This document shows positions 39,820-49,093 of a DNA stretch of 64,000 bases, piece after piece. Every line of letters begins with the position of its first letter. Position 1 is the stretch's first letter. Under the pieces are notes generated by a model. It made no database searches and was not told the DNA's origin. It saw only the letters and a list, made by a program, of their open reading frames with translations. The DNA is from Oscillospiraceae bacterium (GTDB lineage: Bacteria; Bacillota; Clostridia; Oscillospirales; Oscillospiraceae). Both the position numbers and the translations under genes were made by a program. The DNA lies in the NCBI GenBank assembly GCA_910575505.1, contig CAJTFK010000001.1, positions 186,001 to 250,000 of the forward strand, given 5' to 3'.

Positions 39820-41007
39820 TTAGAAGCACTTCCGATAGATGGCTTCCTCGGATTCCAGGTCGAAGGGATAGTAGGCGTTGGTCATCAGGCGCTGCTGGTT
39901 GGCCTCCACGCTCTGGGGGAACTTCTTGAAGTCCTCCTCGGTGAAGCCGCAGTCCCGCAGGGGACGCAGGGGCAGGATGCGCTGGAGCAGGGCGTTCATT
40001 TCGGGGATGGCGTTCCTGGCCTCGCAGCCCAGGATACGGGCCACCAGCTCCTTGAACCGCATGATCTCCCCGTCGGGATTCTTCTCGTCATAGTAGTCCA
40101 TGATGGCGCCGAAGAGCATGTAGTTGCTCTCGCCGTGGGCCACGTGGTAGGTGCCGCCCAGGGGGAAGCTCATGCCGTGGACAGGGCCGCAGCCCGCCTT
40201 CAGGAAGGCGATGCCGGCATAGAAGCTGGCGGTGACGAACTCGTCCAGGTACTCGAACCGGGCGTCCTGGCCCTTTTCGTCGATGAGCTTGAAGCCCTTG
40301 AGAATCATGTCCATGGCCTTCTCGGAGAACAGCTCGCTGGTCATGGTCTTCCGGTGGGGGCTGAGGAAGGACTCGGTGGCGTGGACCAGGGCGTCAATGG
40401 CGGAGCAGGCGAAGGGCTTGTAGGGCAGGGTCTTGATGAGGTCCGGAATCAGGCAGACCTTGTTGGGGATGATGTCGTCGGACACCAGACCCAGCTTGGT
40501 TTCGCCGCCGGTGAGCACGCCGTCTTTTTCGTCCTTGACAATGGCCACGGAGATGTTGGTGCACTCCGAGCCTGTGCCGCAGGTGGTGGGGATGGCGATG
40601 ACGTCTTTTTCATGCTGGACGGGGAAGCGCTTGAAATACAGGTTGTGCACCGTGTCGGGACGCTTGCAGCCCAGCAGCTTGCACAGGTCCATGATAGCGC
40701 CGCCGCCGACCGCAATAACCCGGTCGTAGCTCTCATAGGGGATGGCGTCGTACATGGTCTGGATCATGGCCTCGCTGGGCTCGCCGGCGCCGAACTTCTC
40801 CTGGAACACATACTGGCACTTGAGGTTCAGGTCCTTCATGAAGGGGGTGTAGATGAACTCGTTGGTCAGCACCACGTCCCGCTCGTTCAGCTTGAATTCC
40901 TCCGCCATGGCGGTGAAGGTGTCGAACTTGTACACGGTGGGAGCAAAGATGATTTCACGCTTGTCGGCCATCAGAGCGGCGGAAAAAGCGTCCATTTTCT
41001 GAGCCAT
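39820..41007 (-). CDS. Iron-containing alcohol dehydrogenase, 4-hydroxybutyrate dehydrogenase-like
   Basis: A 395-residue family III (iron) alcohol dehydrogenase. The NAD site VIAVGGGAIMDLCKLLG, the conserved IAIPTTCGTGSECTNISVA, and the metal-ligand region (SAIDALVHATESFLS, then GCGPVHGMSFPLGGTYHVAHGESN) are present. Several stretches (VYKFDT, LTNEFIYTPF, VFQEKFGAGEPSEAMI) resemble the Clostridium kluyveri 4-hydroxybutyrate dehydrogenase, which interconverts 4-hydroxybutyrate and succinate semialdehyde, as recalled from memory. No other gene of that pathway lies nearby. It follows the 122-bp repeat array, in the same direction as the transketolase genes. Confidence 0.75.
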   Translation of the reverse strand: MAQKMDAFSAALMADKREIIFAPTVYKFDTFTAMAEEFKLNERDVVLTNEFIYTPFMKDLNLKCQYVFQEKFGAGEPSEAMIQTMYDAIPYESYDRVIAVGGGAIMDLCKLLGCKRPDTVHNLYFKRFPVQHEKDVIAIPTTCGTGSECTNISVAIVKDEKDGVLTGGETKLGLVSDDIIPNKVCLIPDLIKTLPYKPFACSAIDALVHATESFLSPHRKTMTSELFSEKAMDMILKGFKLIDEKGQDARFEYLDEFVTASFYAGIAFLKAGCGPVHGMSFPLGGTYHVAHGESNYMLFGAIMDYYDEKNPDGEIMRFKELVARILGCEARNAIPEMNALLQRILPLRPLRDCGFTEEDFKKFPQSVEANQQRLMTNAYYPFDLESEEAIYRKCF

Positions 41008-41046: not shown

Positions 41047-41534
41047 ACACTTTTTCTTGAAAGAAAAAGTGTGCAAAAAGAACTTTTGTTTCCCGCTTCG
41101 CGGGCCTTTTCTATCGGAGGCCCCTTGTTCGCAGGAGCAGGCACAGGGTAACCAAAAGCTTTTCTTTGCATCCTTTTCCTGAAAGAAAATGCAGGCAAAA
41201 AGAACTTTTGTTCCCCGCTTCGCGGGCCTTTTCTATCGGAGGCCTCTTGTTCGCAGGAGCAGGCACAGGGTAACCAAAAGCTTTTCTTTGCATCCTTTTC
41301 CTGAAAGAAAATGCAGGCAAAAAGAACTTTTGTTTCCCGCTTCGCGGGCCTTTTCTATCGGAGGCCTCTTGTTCGCAGGAGCAGGCACAGGGTAACCAAA
41401 AGCTTTTCTTTGCATCCTTTTCCTGAAAGAAAATGCAGGCAAAAAGAACTTTTGTTTCCCGCTTCGCGGGCCTTTTCTATCGGAGGCCCCTTATTCGCAG
41501 GAGCAGGCACAGGGTAACCAAAAGCTTTTCTTTG
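41047..41534. repeat. Tandem array of a 122-bp unit, about four copies
   Basis: Units start at 41169, 41291 and 41413 (period exactly 122 bp, nearly identical), preceded by a copy with a diverged left end (41047-41168). Each unit contains GAACTTTTGTT, the hairpin CCCGCTTCGCGGG, CTATCGGAGGCC, TTCGCAGGAGCAGGCACAGGG and AAAGCTTTTCTTTG. Differences between units are single bases (TTCCC/TTTCCC, CCTC/CCCC). The array separates the transketolase genes from the dehydrogenase gene. Short open frames inside it are artefacts of the repetition. Confidence 0.95.
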
Positions 41535-41562
41535 CATCCTTTCTTTTTCAAAAGAAAGGATG
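41535..41562 (-). terminator. Hairpin at the end of the repeat array
   Basis: CATCCTTTC, TTTTTCAAAA, GAAAGGATG forms a perfect 9-bp stem directly after the last 122-bp unit and about 45 nt beyond the transketolase stop on the minus strand. A second hairpin, GCAGGGGC AGA GCCCCTGC, lies at 41569-41587. Either may end the transketolase transcript. Confidence 0.55.
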
Positions 41563-41605
41563 CGGGGTGCAGGGGCAGAGCCCCTGCATCATGACCCTCT
41601 GCGCG

Positions 41606-42586
41606 TTACTTCCGTGCGACAGCCTTCTTGACGGCCTCCACGATGTTGGCCGCCCGCAGGCCGTAGGTGTCCATCAGGAAATTCTGGGGGCCCACCTGGC
41701 CGAACTGGTCCTGCACGCCCACGAACTCCTGCACCATCGGGCAGTTCTTCGCCAGGCAGTTGGCAACAACGGAACCCAGGCCGCAGCAGGTGTTGTGGTT
41801 TTCGGCGGTGACAATGGCCCCGGTTTCCCTGGCGGCCTTGATGACCAGCTCCTCGTCCAGGGGCTTCCAGGTGAACATGTCGATGACCCGGACGCTGATC
41901 CCCTCGGCCTGGAGGGCCTCGTAGGCTTTCAGGCTCTCGTCCACCATGATGCCGGAGGTGATGATGGTAGCTTTGTCGTCGGCGCTCTCGTGGAGCACCA
42001 CGCCCTTGCCGATCTCAAACTCGCTGCCCTCGCCGTAGACCTGAATCACGTCCTTCCGGACGAAGCGGGTGAAGCTCACGCCCTCCACATTCACAAGGCC
42101 ACGGGTTACGCTGGCCAGCTGGTCGTAGTCGGCGGGGTCGATCACCGTGGCGGTGGGGATGCTCAGGTACATGGCCGCGTCCTCCAGAGGCATGTGGGTG
42201 CCGCCGTTGAAGGCCGCCGTCACGCCCGCGTCGGAGCCCAGCACCCGGACGCTCAGGCCCGCGTAGGCGGCGCTCATGTAAATCTGGTCATAGCACCGGC
42301 GGCTGGAGAAGGTGCCGAAGGAGTGGAAGAAAACCTTCTTCCCTGTGGCGGCCAGGCCCGCAGCCACACCGGCGGCGTTGCCCTCGGCGATGCCGGCCTC
42401 AAAAGCCCGGTCGGGATAGTTTTTCGCCAGCATCTTTGTGTTGATGCAGCCCATCAGGTCGCAGTCCACATAGACGATGCTCTTGTCCTCGGCCATCAGC
42501 CCGTTCAGGGTCAGAGCCAGGCCGTCCCGGCAGGCCCGGGAATCCTTTTCATGCTTACCGATCAGTTTCACATTCATCTCTCTCAC
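41606..42586 (-). CDS. Transketolase, C-terminal subunit
   Basis: A 326-residue protein with the pyrimidine-binding and C-terminal domains of transketolase: GLMAEDKSIVYVDCDLMGCINTK, the conserved acidic residue in AFEAGIAEGNAAGVAAGLAATG, VFFHSFGTFSSRRCYDQIYMSAAYAGL and a C-terminal VIDMFTWKPLDEELVIKAARETGAIVTAENHN. It pairs with the N-terminal subunit 6 nt upstream to form a split enzyme that transfers two-carbon units between sugar phosphates. Specificity within the family is not visible from sequence. Confidence 0.9.
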   Translation of the reverse strand: MREMNVKLIGKHEKDSRACRDGLALTLNGLMAEDKSIVYVDCDLMGCINTKMLAKNYPDRAFEAGIAEGNAAGVAAGLAATGKKVFFHSFGTFSSRRCYDQIYMSAAYAGLSVRVLGSDAGVTAAFNGGTHMPLEDAAMYLSIPTATVIDPADYDQLASVTRGLVNVEGVSFTRFVRKDVIQVYGEGSEFEIGKGVVLHESADDKATIITSGIMVDESLKAYEALQAEGISVRVIDMFTWKPLDEELVIKAARETGAIVTAENHNTCCGLGSVVANCLAKNCPMVQEFVGVQDQFGQVGPQNFLMDTYGLRAANIVEAVKKAVARK

Positions 42587-42592
42587 CCTCCT

Positions 42593-43426
42593 TTAAGCGT
42601 TCTTTGCGGCTTCCAGCTCTTTTTCGGAAGCGGCGATGGCCTCCAGCCACTGTTCTTCCTTGGGCTGGGAGGAATGGTCGTGCTTGGGCTCCGCAAACGT
42701 CGCGCCTTTGCCCTTGCTGGTGTTCAGCACAATGCAGGAGGGCACGCCCTTGGCCGCTTTCGCCGCTTCAATGGCCTCATAGATGGCTTTCACGTCATGT
42801 CCGTCGATGACCTGGGTGTGGAGGCCGAAGCCCTCCACCTTTTTCGCCATGTCTCCGTGAGCCAGGATGTCGTCGGTGGGGCCGTCCAGCTGGTAGCCGT
42901 TGTTGTCGATGAAGTAAATGATATTGTCCAGCTTGTGGGCACAGGCAAAGTGGAAGCCCTCCCAGACCTGGCCCTCGTCCGCCTCGCCGTCTCCGATGAC
43001 GCAGTAGACGTAGTTATCCCGTCCGTCGATCTTATTGCCCAGAGCCGCGCCGGTAGCGGTGGAGACGCCCTGGCCCAGGGAGCCGGTGGTGAGGTCCACG
43101 CCGGGGGTAAGCTTGCGGTCCGTGTGGCTGGGGAATTTCGTGCCGGGCTGGTTCAGGGTGTAGGCGTCCTCCATGGGATAGAAGCCCATCAGGCCGAAGG
43201 TGGCGTAGGCCACGGGGCCCGCGTGGCCCTTGGAGAGCACCAGCCAGTCCCGGTCCTCCCAGCGGGGGTTCTTCGGGTCGTATTTCATGACCTCCCCGTA
43301 CAGCACCGCCATCAGGTCCGCCAGGTCCATGGACCCGCCCACATGGCCGAACCCGCGGCTGTGGATCACCTTCAGCGTCTCCAGACGGATTTTCGCCGCC
43401 AGGACTTTGAGATTTTTCTCATTCAT
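42593..43426 (-). CDS. Transketolase, N-terminal subunit
   Basis: A 277-residue protein with the thiamine diphosphate domain: GFGHVGGSMDLADLMAVLYGEVM, KGHAGPVAYATFGLMGF, TTGSLGQGVSTATGAALGNKI, and the metal-binding GDGEADEGQVWEGFHFACAHKLDNIIYFIDNNGYQLDGPT. Split transketolases are common in Clostridia. It has its own promoter upstream. Genes for phosphoglycerate mutase and HAD proteins lie upstream on the same strand but probably belong to a separate unit. Confidence 0.92.
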   Translation of the reverse strand: MNEKNLKVLAAKIRLETLKVIHSRGFGHVGGSMDLADLMAVLYGEVMKYDPKNPRWEDRDWLVLSKGHAGPVAYATFGLMGFYPMEDAYTLNQPGTKFPSHTDRKLTPGVDLTTGSLGQGVSTATGAALGNKIDGRDNYVYCVIGDGEADEGQVWEGFHFACAHKLDNIIYFIDNNGYQLDGPTDDILAHGDMAKKVEGFGLHTQVIDGHDVKAIYEAIEAAKAAKGVPSCIVLNTSKGKGATFAEPKHDHSSQPKEEQWLEAIAASEKELEAAKNA

Positions 43427-43587
43427 TGGTGTCGCTTCCTTTCCTGTTACTATACTGAGCGCCGAGCCGGGTGGCGTTCGGAGACGAACGCCGAAAACCT
43501 CCCGTTCCCTGGTCCTGCACCTTCCGCGCCGCCCCTGGTCCCGGAATCTTTTCGCCCACTTCCCAGCTGGGTCTTTTCTCGTGCCCT

Positions 43588-43617
43588 ATTTTACCCCACA
43601 GGGAGCCGCCCAGTCAA
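43588..43617 (-). promoter_or_regulatory. Promoter of the split transketolase
   Basis: TTGACT (complement of 43612-43617), 18 bp, TAAAAT (complement of 43588-43593). It leaves an untranslated leader of about 150 nt. The surrounding gap (43427-43726) holds no gene. Confidence 0.7.
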
Positions 43618-43691
43618 TGACAATCTGAATTTTAACAAACATCTTTCAACTCCCTGCCGGAAAAGGGGTTCGTTTCCTCCGGAACAGGCCG

Positions 43692-43713
43692 CAGGGCCCC
43701 GGAGAGGGGCCCT
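43692..43713 (-). terminator. GC hairpin after the phosphoglycerate mutase gene
   Basis: CAGGGCCCC, loop GGAGA (minus strand TCTCC), GGGGCCCTG. It begins 14 nt after the stop. There is no T-run, so it may only partly end transcription. Confidence 0.5.
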
Positions 43714-43726
43714 GACTGCTCATTCA

Positions 43727-45295
43727 TTATTCGTACTGCGTGCCGGCGCCTTCCACCATGGCGTCATAGGCCCGCTTGACCTTATCGTAGTTTTTGTCCC
43801 GGTCCAGGGCCACGCCCCGGCCCACGCCGTCCACGATGCGGCCCACGCCGATGGCCTTCAGCTTCTCGTCGGTCTCCGCCAGCAGCGCCGGAGCAGAGCC
43901 GGGGTCGGTGGAACGGCCGTCAAATATGATGTGGAGATAGACCCGGTCCAGCCCGTTGTCCCGTGCCATTTCACAGATGTTCAGAGGATAGTCGATGCAG
44001 CCGTGAGAAGACTTGTAGGTCAGATAGGCCAGCAGGTGCAGCGCCGTGCCGTTCTTCCTGGCATGCTCAATGGCCTGGAGGAAAATGGGATTCTGCTTGA
44101 AGCTGCCGTCCTTCACGGCGGCGTCCAGCCGGACGTCGTCCTGCATTACGCAGCGGCCCGCGCCCAGGTTGGAGTGGCCCGCCTCGGAGTTGCCGGCCTT
44201 GCCGGCCCCCAGACCCACAAACTCGCCGGAGGCATGGAGCCTGGACCAGGACTGCTCTGCCAGCAGGGAATCCCAATAGGGGGTATCGGCGATGTGAATG
44301 GCGTCGCCCTCGTCTCCGGTGCCCAGACCCCAGCCGTCGCAGATAATCAGCAGCATTTTCCGGCCCTCGCCCCAGTCCTTGCCCTCACAGAGGGACCTGC
44401 CGTCCATCTCGGCGGGCTGGGGGATGCCCAGCACATCCAGAACCGTGGGAGACACGTCGCCCAGAGAGCCGTCCCGGAGGGCGATGGGGCTCTTGTCTGC
44501 GGGGTCGATCATGATGAAGGGCACCAGGTTGGTGGTGTGGGCTCCGTCGGGCTTTCCGGCGGCAGTGTAGAGCTTTTCAATGTTGCCGTGGTCGGCGGTG
44601 ATGGCCACCACATAGCCTTTGCCCAGGGCGTCGTTGACCACTTTGTCCAGGTACTGGCTCACATAGCCGCAGGCCTTGATCTTGGCCTCGGTATTAGAGG
44701 TATGGCCAATGACGTCGCCGTTGGCGAAGTTGGTCACAACGAAGTCATATTTGCCCAGGGCGTCCATGACGGTGTCCGCCACCTTGGGCAGGGACAGCTC
44801 GGGCTGCTGGTCGAAGTCGATGCCCTTGGGAGAGGGGATGCACACGTCGTCCTCTCCGGGGAAGGGATTGTTCTCGCCGCCGTTGAAGAAGAAGGTCACA
44901 TGGGCGAATTTTTCCGACTCGGCGCAGTGGAACTGGGTTTTCCCGGCCTCGCTGAGCACCTGGGCCAGGGGCTTCACCACCTTGGCCGGAGCAAAGGCGA
45001 TGGGAAGATCCTTGAACTTGTCGTGGTACATGGTCATGATGACGAAATCCAGATCTCGGAGCATCCGGCGTTCCACCTTATCGAAATCCGGCTCGGTGAA
45101 CATCTCGGTGAGCTCGATTTCCCGCTCGCCCCGGCGGCAGCAGAAGATAGCGGCGTCGCCGTCGGAAATCCTGCCCACGGGCTCCCCATTTTCCACCAGG
45201 ACCATGGGCTCCAGATGATAGTCGTCCTGACCCAGCTCATATGCTTTCTTGACGGCCTCAGCCAGCTGAGCGCCGCCGCGCTTGATATCAGACAT
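43727..45295 (-). CDS. Circularly permuted 2,3-bisphosphoglycerate-independent phosphoglycerate mutase
   Basis: A 522-residue iPGM whose two halves are swapped. Residues about 8-303 match the usual C-terminal half: RRGER (Arg55, Arg58), AESEKFAHVTFFFNGG (Lys129), NFANGDVIGHT (Asp194, His198), TADHGN (Asp235, His236) and AHTTNLVPF (His253). Residues 314-522 match the usual N-terminal half: LLIICDGWGL (Asp320), AGNSEAGHSNLGAGR (nucleophile Ser370), His431, FDGRST (Arg461) and GRGVALDRD (Arg493, Arg499). Spacings between these residues equal those of the standard enzyme. One change is Ser462 where Asp normally follows Arg. The ATG at 45295 lies 9 nt after GGAGG. It interconverts 3- and 2-phosphoglycerate if active. 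It follows three HAD genes in one unit. Confidence 0.9.
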   Translation of the reverse strand: MSDIKRGGAQLAEAVKKAYELGQDDYHLEPMVLVENGEPVGRISDGDAAIFCCRRGEREIELTEMFTEPDFDKVERRMLRDLDFVIMTMYHDKFKDLPIAFAPAKVVKPLAQVLSEAGKTQFHCAESEKFAHVTFFFNGGENNPFPGEDDVCIPSPKGIDFDQQPELSLPKVADTVMDALGKYDFVVTNFANGDVIGHTSNTEAKIKACGYVSQYLDKVVNDALGKGYVVAITADHGNIEKLYTAAGKPDGAHTTNLVPFIMIDPADKSPIALRDGSLGDVSPTVLDVLGIPQPAEMDGRSLCEGKDWGEGRKMLLIICDGWGLGTGDEGDAIHIADTPYWDSLLAEQSWSRLHASGEFVGLGAGKAGNSEAGHSNLGAGRCVMQDDVRLDAAVKDGSFKQNPIFLQAIEHARKNGTALHLLAYLTYKSSHGCIDYPLNICEMARDNGLDRVYLHIIFDGRSTDPGSAPALLAETDEKLKAIGVGRIVDGVGRGVALDRDKNYDKVKRAYDAMVEGAGTQYE

Positions 45296-45321
45296 AGTGC
45301 TTTACCTCCACACTTCATATT

Positions 45322-45407
45322 CAGAGTAAAGAGCCGAGAATCGAACGCGGAGATATGAGACGCCGGGGCGTCTTCACGCTTCACTCTGCACTCTTCACTC
45401 TCAAAAA
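45322..45407 (-). repeat. Heptamer stem-loop repeat (TGAAGAG type) before the mutase gene
   Basis: Starting four bases after the stop of the HAD gene, the minus strand runs TTGAGAG, TGAAGAG, TGCAGAG, TGAAGCG, TGAAGAC. It then has an inner hairpin GACGCCGGGGCGTC and a partly complementary arm near 45322-45335. Same heptamer type as at 4961-4996. Confidence 0.75.
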
Positions 45408-46184
45408 TCACTGTCCGTCGTCCGGTGCAATCAGCTTCTCCACAGCCACCTTTCCCCGCTCCGGGAAGATGTCCAGCAGCTGGGGGAAGGTGTAGATCTT
45501 GCCGTCGGGCATATTCTCCTCCGTCAGCTTCAGGGGCTTCTTTCGGTTATACTGCACCGCAACCGTCATGCCGAAGTCCACGGCCTTGGCCCCCACGATG
45601 TCCCGATTCAGGTTGTCGCCTACATAGCAGCAGTTCTCCGGCTGAGCCCCCGCCTCTTCCATGGCATAATAATAGATGGCGGGGCCGGGCTTGCGGATGT
45701 AGGTGATGGAGGACTGCTGAACGGTCTTGAAATAGGGCCGCAGGCCGTCGGCGTCCAGCCACTCGTCCACCTCACGCTTGCCCACCAGATCGCTGATGAT
45801 GCCCATGGTATAGCCCCGGGCGCACAGCTCCCTGACGGTGTCCGCGCCGCCCTCCACCACGGTGCGGCGGCCCTTGGTCTGGCGGTACTGATAGGTCAGC
45901 TCGGCGGCGTTCTTCAGAATGCGCTCCCGATCCATATCATAGGCCAGCCACCTGGTCCACAGGACTTCCTCCGGGGCCTCGCACATGAATTTCAGGGCCC
46001 ACTCCCGGTATTTGTCATACCGTTTGTCAATCACGTCGCTGAACCACTGGTTGGGGTTGTCGGTCTCCACTCCGCAGAGCTCCGCGATTTTCGCCCGGGC
46101 GGCGGAGAGATAAGCCGGGTCCTCGTCAATGACCCGGAAGGTCCCCCCCAGGTCCAGAAAAATATAACGGATATCGGTATTCAT
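45408..46184 (-). CDS. HAD superfamily protein (third of three), DxGGT variant
   Basis: A 258-residue HAD type IA protein. Motif I is FLDLGGTFR: the nucleophile Asp11 is kept, but the Asp two residues later, the usual acid/base of phosphatases, is Gly. Motif II lies in GIISDL, motif III is IRKPG and motif IV is YVGDNLNRDIVGAKAVDFGM. The cap region contains KYREWALKFMCEAPEEVLWTRWL, shared with the two upstream paralogues. The reaction is unknown; with the changed motif it may not be an ordinary phosphatase. Confidence 0.82.
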   Translation of the reverse strand: MNTDIRYIFLDLGGTFRVIDEDPAYLSAARAKIAELCGVETDNPNQWFSDVIDKRYDKYREWALKFMCEAPEEVLWTRWLAYDMDRERILKNAAELTYQYRQTKGRRTVVEGGADTVRELCARGYTMGIISDLVGKREVDEWLDADGLRPYFKTVQQSSITYIRKPGPAIYYYAMEEAGAQPENCCYVGDNLNRDIVGAKAVDFGMTVAVQYNRKKPLKLTEENMPDGKIYTFPQLLDIFPERGKVAVEKLIAPDDGQ

Positions 46185-46274: not shown

Positions 46275-47012
46275 TCACTTCAGGGAGGGAAGCAAATTGA
46301 GAATCTCCCGGAAATCCTCCACCACGGCGTCGGGCCGGTTCTCCTCGGTAAACTTCACCGGGTGCTTCTTCTCCGGGGAGGAAAAGATGATATTGAAGCC
46401 GATTCCGGCCTCCTTCGCCCCGGTGATATCCCGCTTGACATTGTCCGCCACGGACACGCAGTCCTCCGGCGCCACGCCGATGTCCTTGCAGGCCACTCTG
46501 TAGATTTCGGAACAGGGCTTGCGCAGTCCGCAGACGGAGGAGAGAATCACACTGTCGAAATACTCCGCCAGTCCGTCCTCCTCCAGCCAGTCGGGAACCT
46601 CGTTCTCCCCAATGAGGTTGGAGATGATGCCCAGCTTGTAGCCCCGCTCATGGAGTCCCCTGATGACCTCCACGCCGCCGTCCACAACGACCCGGCGGCC
46701 CTTGCACTGGCGGTACTGGAAGCTCAGCTCATGGCAGACCTGACGGATTCGCGCCCGGTCATAATCCGGCAGCAGCCACTTGCACCAGAGTTCCTCGTCA
46801 TTGGACTCCTTGTTCTCCCCCAGGGCCCACTTGCGGTAGGGCTCATAGCGCTCCTCAATCATCTGATAGAATTCCTCATAGGGCACGGGAGACCCGGCAA
46901 TCTCCGCCATCTTCCGGCGGGCGTGCTTCATATAGGGCTCCTCCAGCAGCGCGATGCGGAGGGTGCCGCCCAGGTCAAAAAAGACGGCCTTGTAGCGCTT
47001 TGTCATGTCCAT
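46275..47012 (-). CDS. HAD superfamily protein (second of three), DxGGT variant
   Basis: A 245-residue paralogue of its neighbours. Motif I is VFFDLGGTLR (Asp13 present, second Asp replaced by Gly15), motif II GIISNL, motif III LRKPC, motif IV SVADNVKRDITGAKEAGIG, in which the usual VGDN is VADN. The cap segment PYRKWALGENKESNDEELWCKWLLPDYDRARI aligns with the other two. It follows the first HAD gene by 15 nt. Translation may start at the Met two codons inside (MTKRYK). Confidence 0.82.
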   Translation of the reverse strand: MDMTKRYKAVFFDLGGTLRIALLEEPYMKHARRKMAEIAGSPVPYEEFYQMIEERYEPYRKWALGENKESNDEELWCKWLLPDYDRARIRQVCHELSFQYRQCKGRRVVVDGGVEVIRGLHERGYKLGIISNLIGENEVPDWLEEDGLAEYFDSVILSSVCGLRKPCSEIYRVACKDIGVAPEDCVSVADNVKRDITGAKEAGIGFNIIFSSPEKKHPVKFTEENRPDAVVEDFREILNLLPSLK

Positions 47013-47027: not shown

Positions 47028-47762
47028 TCAAGTGCGCATGGGGAAGATGTCCAGCAGCTGGCTCAGGGCGGTGATTACGTGGTCGGGCGTGAACTCTTTC
47101 CCGGTGGCGTGCTCATTGTTCAGGGTATCGGGCTCGTCAATGCGGATCATCATGCCGAAGCCTGCCGCCTGGGTTCCCTCCACGTCCCGGACCGGGTTGT
47201 CGCCCACATAGGCGCAATTGGCCTCGGGCGTGCCGATGCAGCGGCACGCCAGGTGGTAAATCTCCGGGTTGGGCTTGCGCAGACGGACCTTGGAGGAGAG
47301 AATAGTGGTCTTGAAGCACTGGGCCACGCCGTCGGCGGCCATCCAGTCGGGAATCTCGGTCTCGGTGACGGTATTGGCGATGATGCCCAGCGTATAGCCC
47401 CGGGCGCAGAGCTCCTTGATGGTATCCACCGCGTCGGCCCGGGCCACACGGCGTCCGTCGTGGTCCCGCCACAGACGGGTGAGCTTCGCCGCGTTGGCGA
47501 AAATCATGTTGGCGTCATACTCCGGCAGCATATATTGGGTCCACAGCTCCCCTTCCGAGGCGTCCAGCAGGGTGGTCTTGGACATTTTGCGGTACTTGCT
47601 CCAGCGCTCCTCCAGCTTGGCAAAGAGCTCGTCGTGGGTCTCTGTGGTGTGAATCAGCTCCATCAATCCGGCCTCCGCCTGGTCGATGAAGTCCTGTTCC
47701 TTCAGAACGATGCGCAGGGTGTTGCCCACGTCAAAGAAAATGGTTTGGATATCCGGGGTCAT
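47028..47762 (-). CDS. HAD superfamily protein (first of three), DxGNT variant
   Basis: A 244-residue HAD type IA protein, first gene of the unit behind the LacI-type operator. Motif I is IFFDVGNTLR (nucleophile Asp11; second Asp replaced by Gly13). Motif II is GIIANT, motif III LRKPN and motif IV YVGDNPVRDVEGTQAAGFGM, all intact. The cap is helical. Three paralogues in a row with the same altered motif suggest an old duplication and a shared, special chemistry. Confidence 0.82.
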   Translation of the reverse strand: MTPDIQTIFFDVGNTLRIVLKEQDFIDQAEAGLMELIHTTETHDELFAKLEERWSKYRKMSKTTLLDASEGELWTQYMLPEYDANMIFANAAKLTRLWRDHDGRRVARADAVDTIKELCARGYTLGIIANTVTETEIPDWMAADGVAQCFKTTILSSKVRLRKPNPEIYHLACRCIGTPEANCAYVGDNPVRDVEGTQAAGFGMMIRIDEPDTLNNEHATGKEFTPDHVITALSQLLDIFPMRT

Positions 47763-47832
47763 GGAATCGTCCTCCTTTTATGTATGTAATGGTATCCGGG
47801 GCGGCGGACCGCGGGCCCTGAGGCTGCACTGT

Positions 47833-47843
47833 AAACGTTTGCG
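47833..47843. promoter_or_regulatory. LacI-type operator before the HAD-mutase unit
   Basis: AAACGTTTGCG, with the palindromic core AAACGTTT typical of LacI-family sites, lies 15 bp downstream of the -10 box. An identical 11-mer in the same orientation occurs before lacI (48042-48052). Confidence 0.75.
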
Positions 47844-47857
47844 GTCTTTTCATGCTT

Positions 47858-47887
47858 ATTCTAAATGAAACAGCGGTCTCTTGTCAA
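47858..47887 (-). promoter_or_regulatory. Promoter of the HAD-mutase unit
   Basis: TTGACA (complement of 47882-47887), 18 bp, TAGAAT (complement of 47858-47863). The operator lies just downstream, suiting repression. Confidence 0.78.
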
Positions 47888-47987: not shown

Positions 47988-48041
47988 AAACTTGACAATC
48001 TGAAGCGGCCGGGCTTTGTCCGGTTTTCGCAAAAAAATCGG

Positions 48042-48052
48042 AAACGTTTGCG
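48042..48052. promoter_or_regulatory. LacI-type operator before lacI
   Basis: AAACGTTTGCG, identical to 47833-47843, between the lacI promoter and its start codon: probable autoregulation. Confidence 0.72.
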
Positions 48053-48082
48053 ATTTTCTATAGCTGGAAAGGACGCTGCGTT

Positions 48083-49093
48083 ATGAAAAATGTAACACTG
48101 AAGGATGTCGCCAAGGCCGCGGGTGTCTCCTATGCCACCGTTTCCAGAGCCCTCTCCGGCAGCCACCAGATCGGCAGCGACACCCGGGAGCGCATCATCA
48201 AGCTCTGCGACGAAATGGGCTACACCACCAACTATGTGGCCCGCTCCATGGTGACAAAGAGAACCGGCCTCATTGGCCTGGTGGTCCCCTCCATCGACAA
48301 TCAGTTCATGTCCGAGCTGGCCTACTACGCCGAGATGAGCGCCAGGGGACACGGATACAACATCATGCTCTGCAACTCCGGTCCCGACCTCAAGCAGGAG
48401 AAAACCGTGGTCAAGCTGCTGCTGAGCCGCCAGGTGGACGGCATTCTGATTGTCCCCCAGAGCCCCAGGACCTATGAAAACATCCGGGCCTACACGGACC
48501 AGGTGCCTACGGTTTTCCTCAGCGAGAATCTCCGGGACCAGCCCCAGAGCTATGTGGCCGTGGACAACAGCCGGGGCACCTACATCGGCGCCCGGTATCT
48601 CTATGAGCTGGGCCACCGGGATATTCTCTATTTTGGCCGCCGCCACACCACCACCCACCAGCTCCGGGCGGAGGGGTACATCCGGGCCTGCCAGGAGCTG
48701 AACCTCCGTCCCCGGTTTTTCAACAGCGAGTTCTCCCGCTCCTCCATCAACACCGGCTACCAGCTGGCACAGGAGCTGTTCTCCAGGCCCATCGACTACA
48801 CCGCCATTTTCGCCTCCACCGATTCCAACGCCCTGGGCGTTCTGAAGGCGGCGGACAACGCGGGCATTGACATCCCAGGTCGGCTAAGCCTGATTGGCTT
48901 TGACAATATCTCATCCACCGCCCTGCCCCGCATCGACCTCACCACCATTGAACAGCCCAAGCGGGAAATGGCGGTCCAGGCGGTGGACATGCTCCGGGAC
49001 AAGATTGAAAACGGCACCCAGGGCTATGTCCATCAGATTCTCATGCCCGTGCTGATTAAGCGGGGCACCTGCCGGGACCTCCTGAATCATTAG
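48083..49093 (+). CDS. LacI family transcriptional regulator
   Basis: A 336-residue repressor. The N-terminal helix-turn-helix is TLKDVAKAAGVSYATVSRALSGSHQIGSDTRERIIKLCDEMGY, followed by the hinge and a periplasmic-binding-protein-like effector domain (GLIGLVVPSIDNQFMSELAYYAE, YFGRR, FASTDSNALGVLKAADNAGIDIPGRLSLIGFDNI). It is divergent from the HAD-mutase unit and is followed by PHP and sugar-kinase-like genes. The effector is probably a sugar or sugar phosphate. Identical operator words lie before both units. Confidence 0.93.
   Translation: MKNVTLKDVAKAAGVSYATVSRALSGSHQIGSDTRERIIKLCDEMGYTTNYVARSMVTKRTGLIGLVVPSIDNQFMSELAYYAEMSARGHGYNIMLCNSGPDLKQEKTVVKLLLSRQVDGILIVPQSPRTYENIRAYTDQVPTVFLSENLRDQPQSYVAVDNSRGTYIGARYLYELGHRDILYFGRRHTTTHQLRAEGYIRACQELNLRPRFFNSEFSRSSINTGYQLAQELFSRPIDYTAIFASTDSNALGVLKAADNAGIDIPGRLSLIGFDNISSTALPRIDLTTIEQPKREMAVQAVDMLRDKIENGTQGYVHQILMPVLIKRGTCRDLLNH

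Follow-up and report, generated by a model that had tools for sequence, protein, structure and literature searches.

A permuted relative of cofactor-independent phosphoglycerate mutase in Bacillota, probably distinct from the housekeeping enzyme

Among the relatives of cofactor-independent phosphoglycerate mutase (iPGM, encoded by gpmI), PhpG, the CMP-5'-phosphonoformate--3-phosphoglycerate phosphonoformyl transferase (NF038358), is presumably one that has another function. In iPGM itself we take D12, D403, H407, D444 and H445 to be the metal ligands. The reaction proceeds via phosphoserine (PMC5382265, available part), the roles of S62 and H462 are taken here from the available parts of PMC3886921 and PMC12077085 respectively, and nine residues contact the substrate, namely S62, H123, R153, D154, R185, R191, R261, R264 and K336 (PMC3886921, same part); Asp154 was met in the literature only as an entry in that contact list. 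Paralogs of iPGM are called rare in the accessible text of PMC2964296. The other described system to be considered is the methanogen synthetase of cyclic 2,3-diphosphoglycerate (cDPG), a compound said to occur in hyperthermophilic methanogens only and reported at 0.3-1.1 M in some methanogens (PMC10690619, available part), the formation of which is reckoned exergonic by about 10 kJ/mol (PMC12136491, available part).

The window analysed here, a stretch of 64,000 nucleotides from the genome of an Oscillospiraceae bacterium, encodes an iPGM-like protein that we call cpPGM. GpmI is homologous to both of its parts over nearly their whole length, with the same metal ligands, the same catalytic serine and eight of the nine substrate contacts, whereas cpPGM has its parts swapped, its ends in the transferase domain, a serine instead of Asp154, changed residues around His123 and Arg261, and other operons. 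The archaeal-type enzyme apgM (TIGR00306) matches weakly, at the metal-binding end (33.8 bits against a cut-off of 320), and PhpG gives no real sequence match (E 0.14, 10.9 bits against a cut-off of 545). The cDPG synthetase (8ork, 8oru) is clearly homologous to an operon partner of cpPGM in part of a second subfamily, with the difference from the methanogen system that the bacterial homolog stands with an importer and cpPGM. Open-access papers on circular permutation together with phosphoglycerate mutase, or with Oscillibacter, revealed no such enzyme, as judged mostly by titles and the starts of abstracts, and the word start 'permut' is absent from PMC2964296 and PMC12077085; this agrees with an earlier sequence-only reading of the window, which knew of no described example.

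Order of the parts and position of the break

Both iPGM parts are present, in swapped order, within a single frame of 522 codons on the minus strand (Table 1). The sequence-only reading, which had proposed a circular permutation of iPGM, placed the gene correctly and gave no strand; its proposal is borne out by the single frame, by the spacing of the residues and by conservation in dozens of assemblies. In phmmer comparisons, residues 13-302 of the protein (P0002) correspond to 1ejj 218-508, and the second part aligns to the same enzyme without a gap. Pfam and NCBIfam both give the two parts in swapped order, and the Pfam iPGM_N profile is itself split, with its positions 2-131 at the C-terminal end of cpPGM and 129-216 at the N-terminal end. 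When the halves are aligned separately, as that reading had advised, to the standard GpmI of the same genome, they score 221 and 172 bits with 43-44% identity each, against 25 bits for the best of 200 shuffled versions of P0002. A GGAGG motif lies 9 nt upstream of the ATG, in support of a genuine start at the new N-terminus. That we might be dealing with two genes, or with a fusion of strangers, is ruled out by the single frame, by its own ribosome-binding site and by the fact that the halves belong to one family. An open frame of 1263 codons runs antisense to cpPGM and its neighbours (41567-45358, plus strand) and is probably a composition effect.

Table 1. Features of the cpPGM region, in coordinates of the window
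Feature	Position	Strand	Remark
Permuted iPGM-like gene cpPGM, 522 aa (P0002)	43727..45295	-	frame, Pfam/NCBIfam, phmmer, relatives
cpPGM residues 1-302, standard C-terminal part, now first	44390..45295	-	coordinates from residue numbers
cpPGM residues 303-313, linker between old C- and N-termini	44357..44389	-	
cpPGM residues 314-522, standard N-terminal part, now second	43730..44356	-	314-521 = 1ejj 6-213
Ser462 codon, replacing substrate-contact Asp154	43910..43912	-	residue mapping, alignment
GGAGG ribosome-binding site of cpPGM	45305..45309	-	sequence
HAD1, HAD-family phosphatase-like gene	45408..46184	-	adjoins cpPGM in many relatives
HAD2, HAD-family phosphatase-like gene	46275..47012	-	
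HAD3, HAD-family phosphatase-like gene	47028..47762	-	
Promoter-like site TTGACA-18-TAGAAT before HAD3	47858..47887	-	11/12 consensus
AAACGTTT palindrome, probable LacI-family operator	47828..47845	.	12 nt downstream of promoter-like site
Second AAACGTTT palindrome, near LacI gene	48034..48057	.	
LacI-family regulator	48083..49093	+	
Split transketolase, N-terminal subunit	42593..43426	-	neighbour, possibly separate transcription unit
Promoter-like site of split transketolase	43588-43617		
Split transketolase, C-terminal subunit	41606..42586	-	neighbour
Iron-containing alcohol dehydrogenase	39820..41007	-	neighbour

The division into two parts proposed in the sequence-only reading stood inasmuch as both are there and swapped, but it has to be refined: the break lies inside the transferase domain, not between the domains. 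The linker joins the old ends of iPGM, while both new ends fall within a single loop of the transferase domain. In both permuted subfamilies the old junction counts 20-22 residues between two flanking conserved columns; in 19 standard enzymes the site of the new ends is a stretch of 13-14 residues, before one border of which the permuted proteins carry 12-24 residues and after the other 3-12. We can therefore understand the arrangement as one in which the standard ends were joined and a transferase-domain loop was opened. The permutation was probably a single event, as the shared break and the shared residues point to one. With its cut inside the transferase domain of a classic glycolytic enzyme, this natural permutation tests how well that fold copes with new ends.

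Relatives and their distribution

A scan of public genomes yielded at least 80 stretches with the pattern, in at least 48 loci, 42 of which are named, full-length and in the permuted order, with 62-99% identity. Their titles comprise Oscillibacter, Dysosmobacter, Lachnospiraceae, Angelakisella, Erysipelotrichaceae and [Clostridium] asparagiforme (a complete genome); the loci with this order include a complete genome, CP102272.1 (L064), and the isolates Oscillibacter valericigenes An860 and An890 and Oscillibacter sp. 1-3. In a set of 149 nearby genomes, which overlaps with the public-genome loci, the permuted form, complete or truncated at a contig end, was found in at least 34 of the 86 congeneric ones (own genome included) and, among the matches listed, in none of five from other genera of the family and in one of the 58 from the rest of the order. 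A class sample gave two of 391 genomes at E 1e-100, own included, and the searches for the permuted order covered the window's own phylum.

A sample of 398 genomes of the phylum brought in a second subfamily (B, the window-type sequences being A), again in the permuted order, with 11 members (L084-L094, the last cut by a contig end) at 38-41% identity to P0002; a twelfth, in genome G226, came from a re-search of genomes with the synthetase homolog. An insert of about 55-60 residues separates the His462 motif from the LSDVAPT motif in the first part (the standard C-terminal one) of this last protein (L134:3083-4828).

Since the window genome is a draft in 115 contigs, an artefact of assembly or of gene fusion has to be weighed. 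Yet the same order and the same break are found in the 42 named loci, a complete genome and isolates among them, and the divergent subfamily B shares the permuted order, by which the artefact is already refuted and its probability negligible. In a tree of 23 A, 10 B and 19 standard sequences a branch sets off each of A, B and the standard enzymes, with a support of 100/100 for the one between permuted and standard forms; it is to be read as an unrooted tree, for which the tool warns of meeting long branches, and its standard sequences are not random, being 18 of the best standard scorers of the 398-genome sample and the window genome's own. We read cpPGM as a naturally permuted iPGM that probably arose once, as a paralog, and that has rather likely taken on a new role in Bacillota.

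Spread of cpPGM by plasmids or phages was considered and set aside, as tblastn matched 22 plasmid and 21 phage records, counted by similarity alone, all below 60% identity. In the single-contig genome G037 (contig C1), cpPGM and gpmI each appear broken into two frames (1650260-1651809 and 2251207-2252702), for which base errors of the assembly are a possible reason.

A conserved catalytic centre in a remodelled pocket

The map of the active site drawn in the sequence-only reading is correct at all 15 positions tested, the serine at 462 in place of Asp154 included. The 14 positions that it named besides Asp154 are invariant in the window protein and its 42 named full-length relatives (43/43) and likewise across 23 A, 10 B and 19 standard sequences (52/52; this alignment took 23 of 43 A sequences and left out L094, L134, L145, L123 and L124). 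The metal ligands and the nucleophile (D12, S62, D403, H407, D444, H445, H462) are thus all kept in cpPGM, and Asp154 is the only one of the nine substrate contacts to have changed: it is a serine in all 43 window-type proteins, and over the three groups the position is D in 19/19 standard and S in 33/33 permuted sequences. L134 shows the same SSHG and DGRS motifs.

Other positions that are invariant in the standard enzymes are altered in both subfamilies, among them 58, 121, 122, 124, 125, 155, 189 and some around Arg261, and the shared changes cluster at 58, 121, 122, 124 and 125 and around Arg261. Both subfamilies have N replaced by C and F by R before Arg261, and A by E after Arg264 (P0002 residue 59); P0002 has gained Arg54 beside Arg55 (standard 260 and 261), and position 58 is basic in all A and in six of ten B sequences. 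Catalytic residues that are kept, together with clustered changes in the pocket, lead us to see an enzyme in which the phosphatase machinery was retained while the part holding the acid was remodelled. The loss of Asp154, the gain of Arg54 and the basic residue 58 suggest a substrate that carries more negative charge than phosphoglycerate does, a bisphosphoglycerate for instance, or else a larger phospho-sugar acid; the change from A to E at residue 59, which adds a negative charge, counts against a simple charge argument.

The sequence-only reading had also advised a search for a standard gpmI elsewhere in the genome, and there is one, on another contig, so that cpPGM is probably not the housekeeping phosphoglycerate mutase. 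Of the genomes of the genus with cpPGM, at least 34 in number, 30 of 34 have a standard gpmI, whole or partial: 27 at the first search and three more on re-search, where the gene is cut short (G004, G074) or lies in two frames (G037). In the other four, which are 67, 71, 80 and 91% complete, only cpPGM was found. Genomes G142 and G907 carry both genes, and of 11 genomes with subfamily B, in which both GpmI and apgM were looked for, eight have a standard GpmI over the cut-off and the other three an apgM over the cut-off.

It is at this point that an ordinary isozyme must be discussed, that is, a permuted but fully competent mutase, a conditionally expressed second copy of GpmI. The metal ligands, the catalytic serine and the eight retained contacts speak for it, and would allow full or residual phosphoglycerate mutase activity; so do the NCBIfam model pgm_bpd_ind, which gives the whole protein a score of 465 against a cut-off of 331 (with a match in two stretches), and a phosphoglucomutase-family gene that adjoins cpPGM in three loci of one family of subfamily B. 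Against it stand the strict split at position 154 with its clustered pocket changes, the presence of another mutase in most genomes checked, and neighbours that are often importers, phosphatases or a cDPG synthetase homolog, and we hold it to be unlikely. For similar reasons the identity as a phosphoglycerate mutase that the sequence-only reading had given to the protein was not borne out: an ordinary gpmI is present, Asp154 is replaced, and the genes around it are for the most part regulators, phosphatases and importers, not glycolysis genes. Annotation pipelines probably call such genes gpmI, despite the swapped parts and the lost substrate contact, since the whole-protein score exceeds the NCBIfam cut-off.

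Operons and candidate substrates

With the isozyme considered, a neofunctionalised phosphatase or phosphomutase acting on an imported phosphoglycerate-like acid appears as the most likely interpretation of residues and gene neighbourhoods. The protein would fold like iPGM; by homology with that enzyme, a small phosphorylated acid would bind, its phosphate would move to Ser370 (standard Ser62) with the help of two metals, and would then be released or passed to another hydroxyl, the whole process taking place in regulated uptake or catabolic operons. The changed pocket and these operons together suggest that the phospho-acid is imported, and more highly charged or larger than the usual substrate. 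The neighbourhoods vary between lineages, and the substrate may vary too.

Of the 47 named loci, in a count uncorrected for contig ends, 36 have the LacI gene seen in the window, in most cases with HAD genes and cpPGM after it. In all 36 a palindrome around AAACGTTT lies within 700 nt after the LacI gene, a raw count over related loci without shuffled control. In three loci (L051, L054, L058) the LacI gene directly precedes cpPGM, with the palindrome between them and no HAD genes; in three others (L068, L071, L077; families scanned for L071) cpPGM is the last gene of an ABC importer operon, and in L064 it stands beside TctA/TctC and an RpiR-type regulator. Promoter-like sites number six in the region against 2.6 in shuffles, which is not proof of a promoter. 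For HAD3, the one of the three that was compared with solved relatives, none was informative for the substrate.

The split transketolase and the alcohol dehydrogenase were rejected as parts of the system, as only some of the Oscillibacter-type loci have them after cpPGM and the transketolase has a promoter-like site of its own. Between these two neighbours lie four near-identical 122-bp tandem repeats (41052-41542), with a CCCGCTTCGCGGG hairpin in each. A homolog of inositol 2-dehydrogenase is found between cpPGM and the transketolase genes in L041, L044, L046, L052 and L055 (at L041:7601-8620 it is over the TIGR04380 cut-off, L041 being the locus scanned for families), and another after cpPGM, near a contig end, in L073.

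Six loci of subfamily B (L113-L116, L121, L134) show the order synthetase, binding protein, permease, ATPase, cpPGM; a GntR gene stands in front in L113, L114, L116 and L121, and in L115 and L134 the contig stops at that point. The families of this importer operon were scanned in L113, whose binding protein (L113:4254-5231) has its closest matches, below the family cut-offs, among proteins of PhnS2 type and those that bind Fe3+ or pyridoxal phosphate, and whose synthetase matches the solved cDPG synthetases 8ork, 8oru and 9sxb at about 1e-133; the synthetases of the other loci match that of L113. Such homologs lie at L113:2864-4204, at L134:9039-10382 and in six other genomes, several in importer operons; no Pfam or NCBIfam model matches that of L113, and no NCBIfam model that of L134. 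At E 1e-20 the synthetase is found in eight of 398 genomes of the phylum, six of which had cpPGM at the first search and a seventh (G226) on a targeted re-search, while in the eighth, 72% complete, the contig breaks off within the ATPase gene. The Fisher p of 4.6e-11 for this co-occurrence is too strong, the genomes being related and G226 having come from the targeted re-search.

A specific form of the preferred interpretation would then be that subfamily B handles 2,3-bisphosphoglycerate derived from, or destined for, cDPG, with the window subfamily carrying out related chemistry on another bisphospho-acid or sugar acid. Gene order, the strength of the synthetase match and co-occurrence all argue in this direction, and 2,3-bisphosphoglycerate is our best single guess for the substrate of subfamily B. 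We nevertheless keep this form as a tentative one, somewhat short of an even chance: five of the 12 B genomes (G210, G283, G313 and G388, all four of family f86, and G373, whose contig starts in the ATPase gene) have no synthetase match, nor does the window genome; the compound is described as exclusive to hyperthermophilic methanogens; its exergonic formation speaks against easy reversal; and the synthetase homologs may have another substrate. The link between the synthetase homolog and an importer in one subfamily does provide a concrete, testable substrate, in bacteria from which cDPG is unreported in the accessible parts of the literature on it. Going one step further, one might imagine a Bacillota pathway that imports cDPG or a relative, opens it by a synthetase homolog running in reverse, and uses cpPGM to remove or move a phosphate of the resulting 2,3-bisphosphoglycerate, the window family being a spin-off for some other imported phospho-acid in gut bacteria; this extension is speculative and, on balance, rather improbable.

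Family f86 of subfamily B, in which an importer operon in front of cpPGM is absent (families scanned for L118 only), is organized otherwise: rapZ precedes cpPGM in all three loci that show that side (L118, L119, L122), and the phosphoglucomutase-family gene follows it in three of four (L117, L118, L122).
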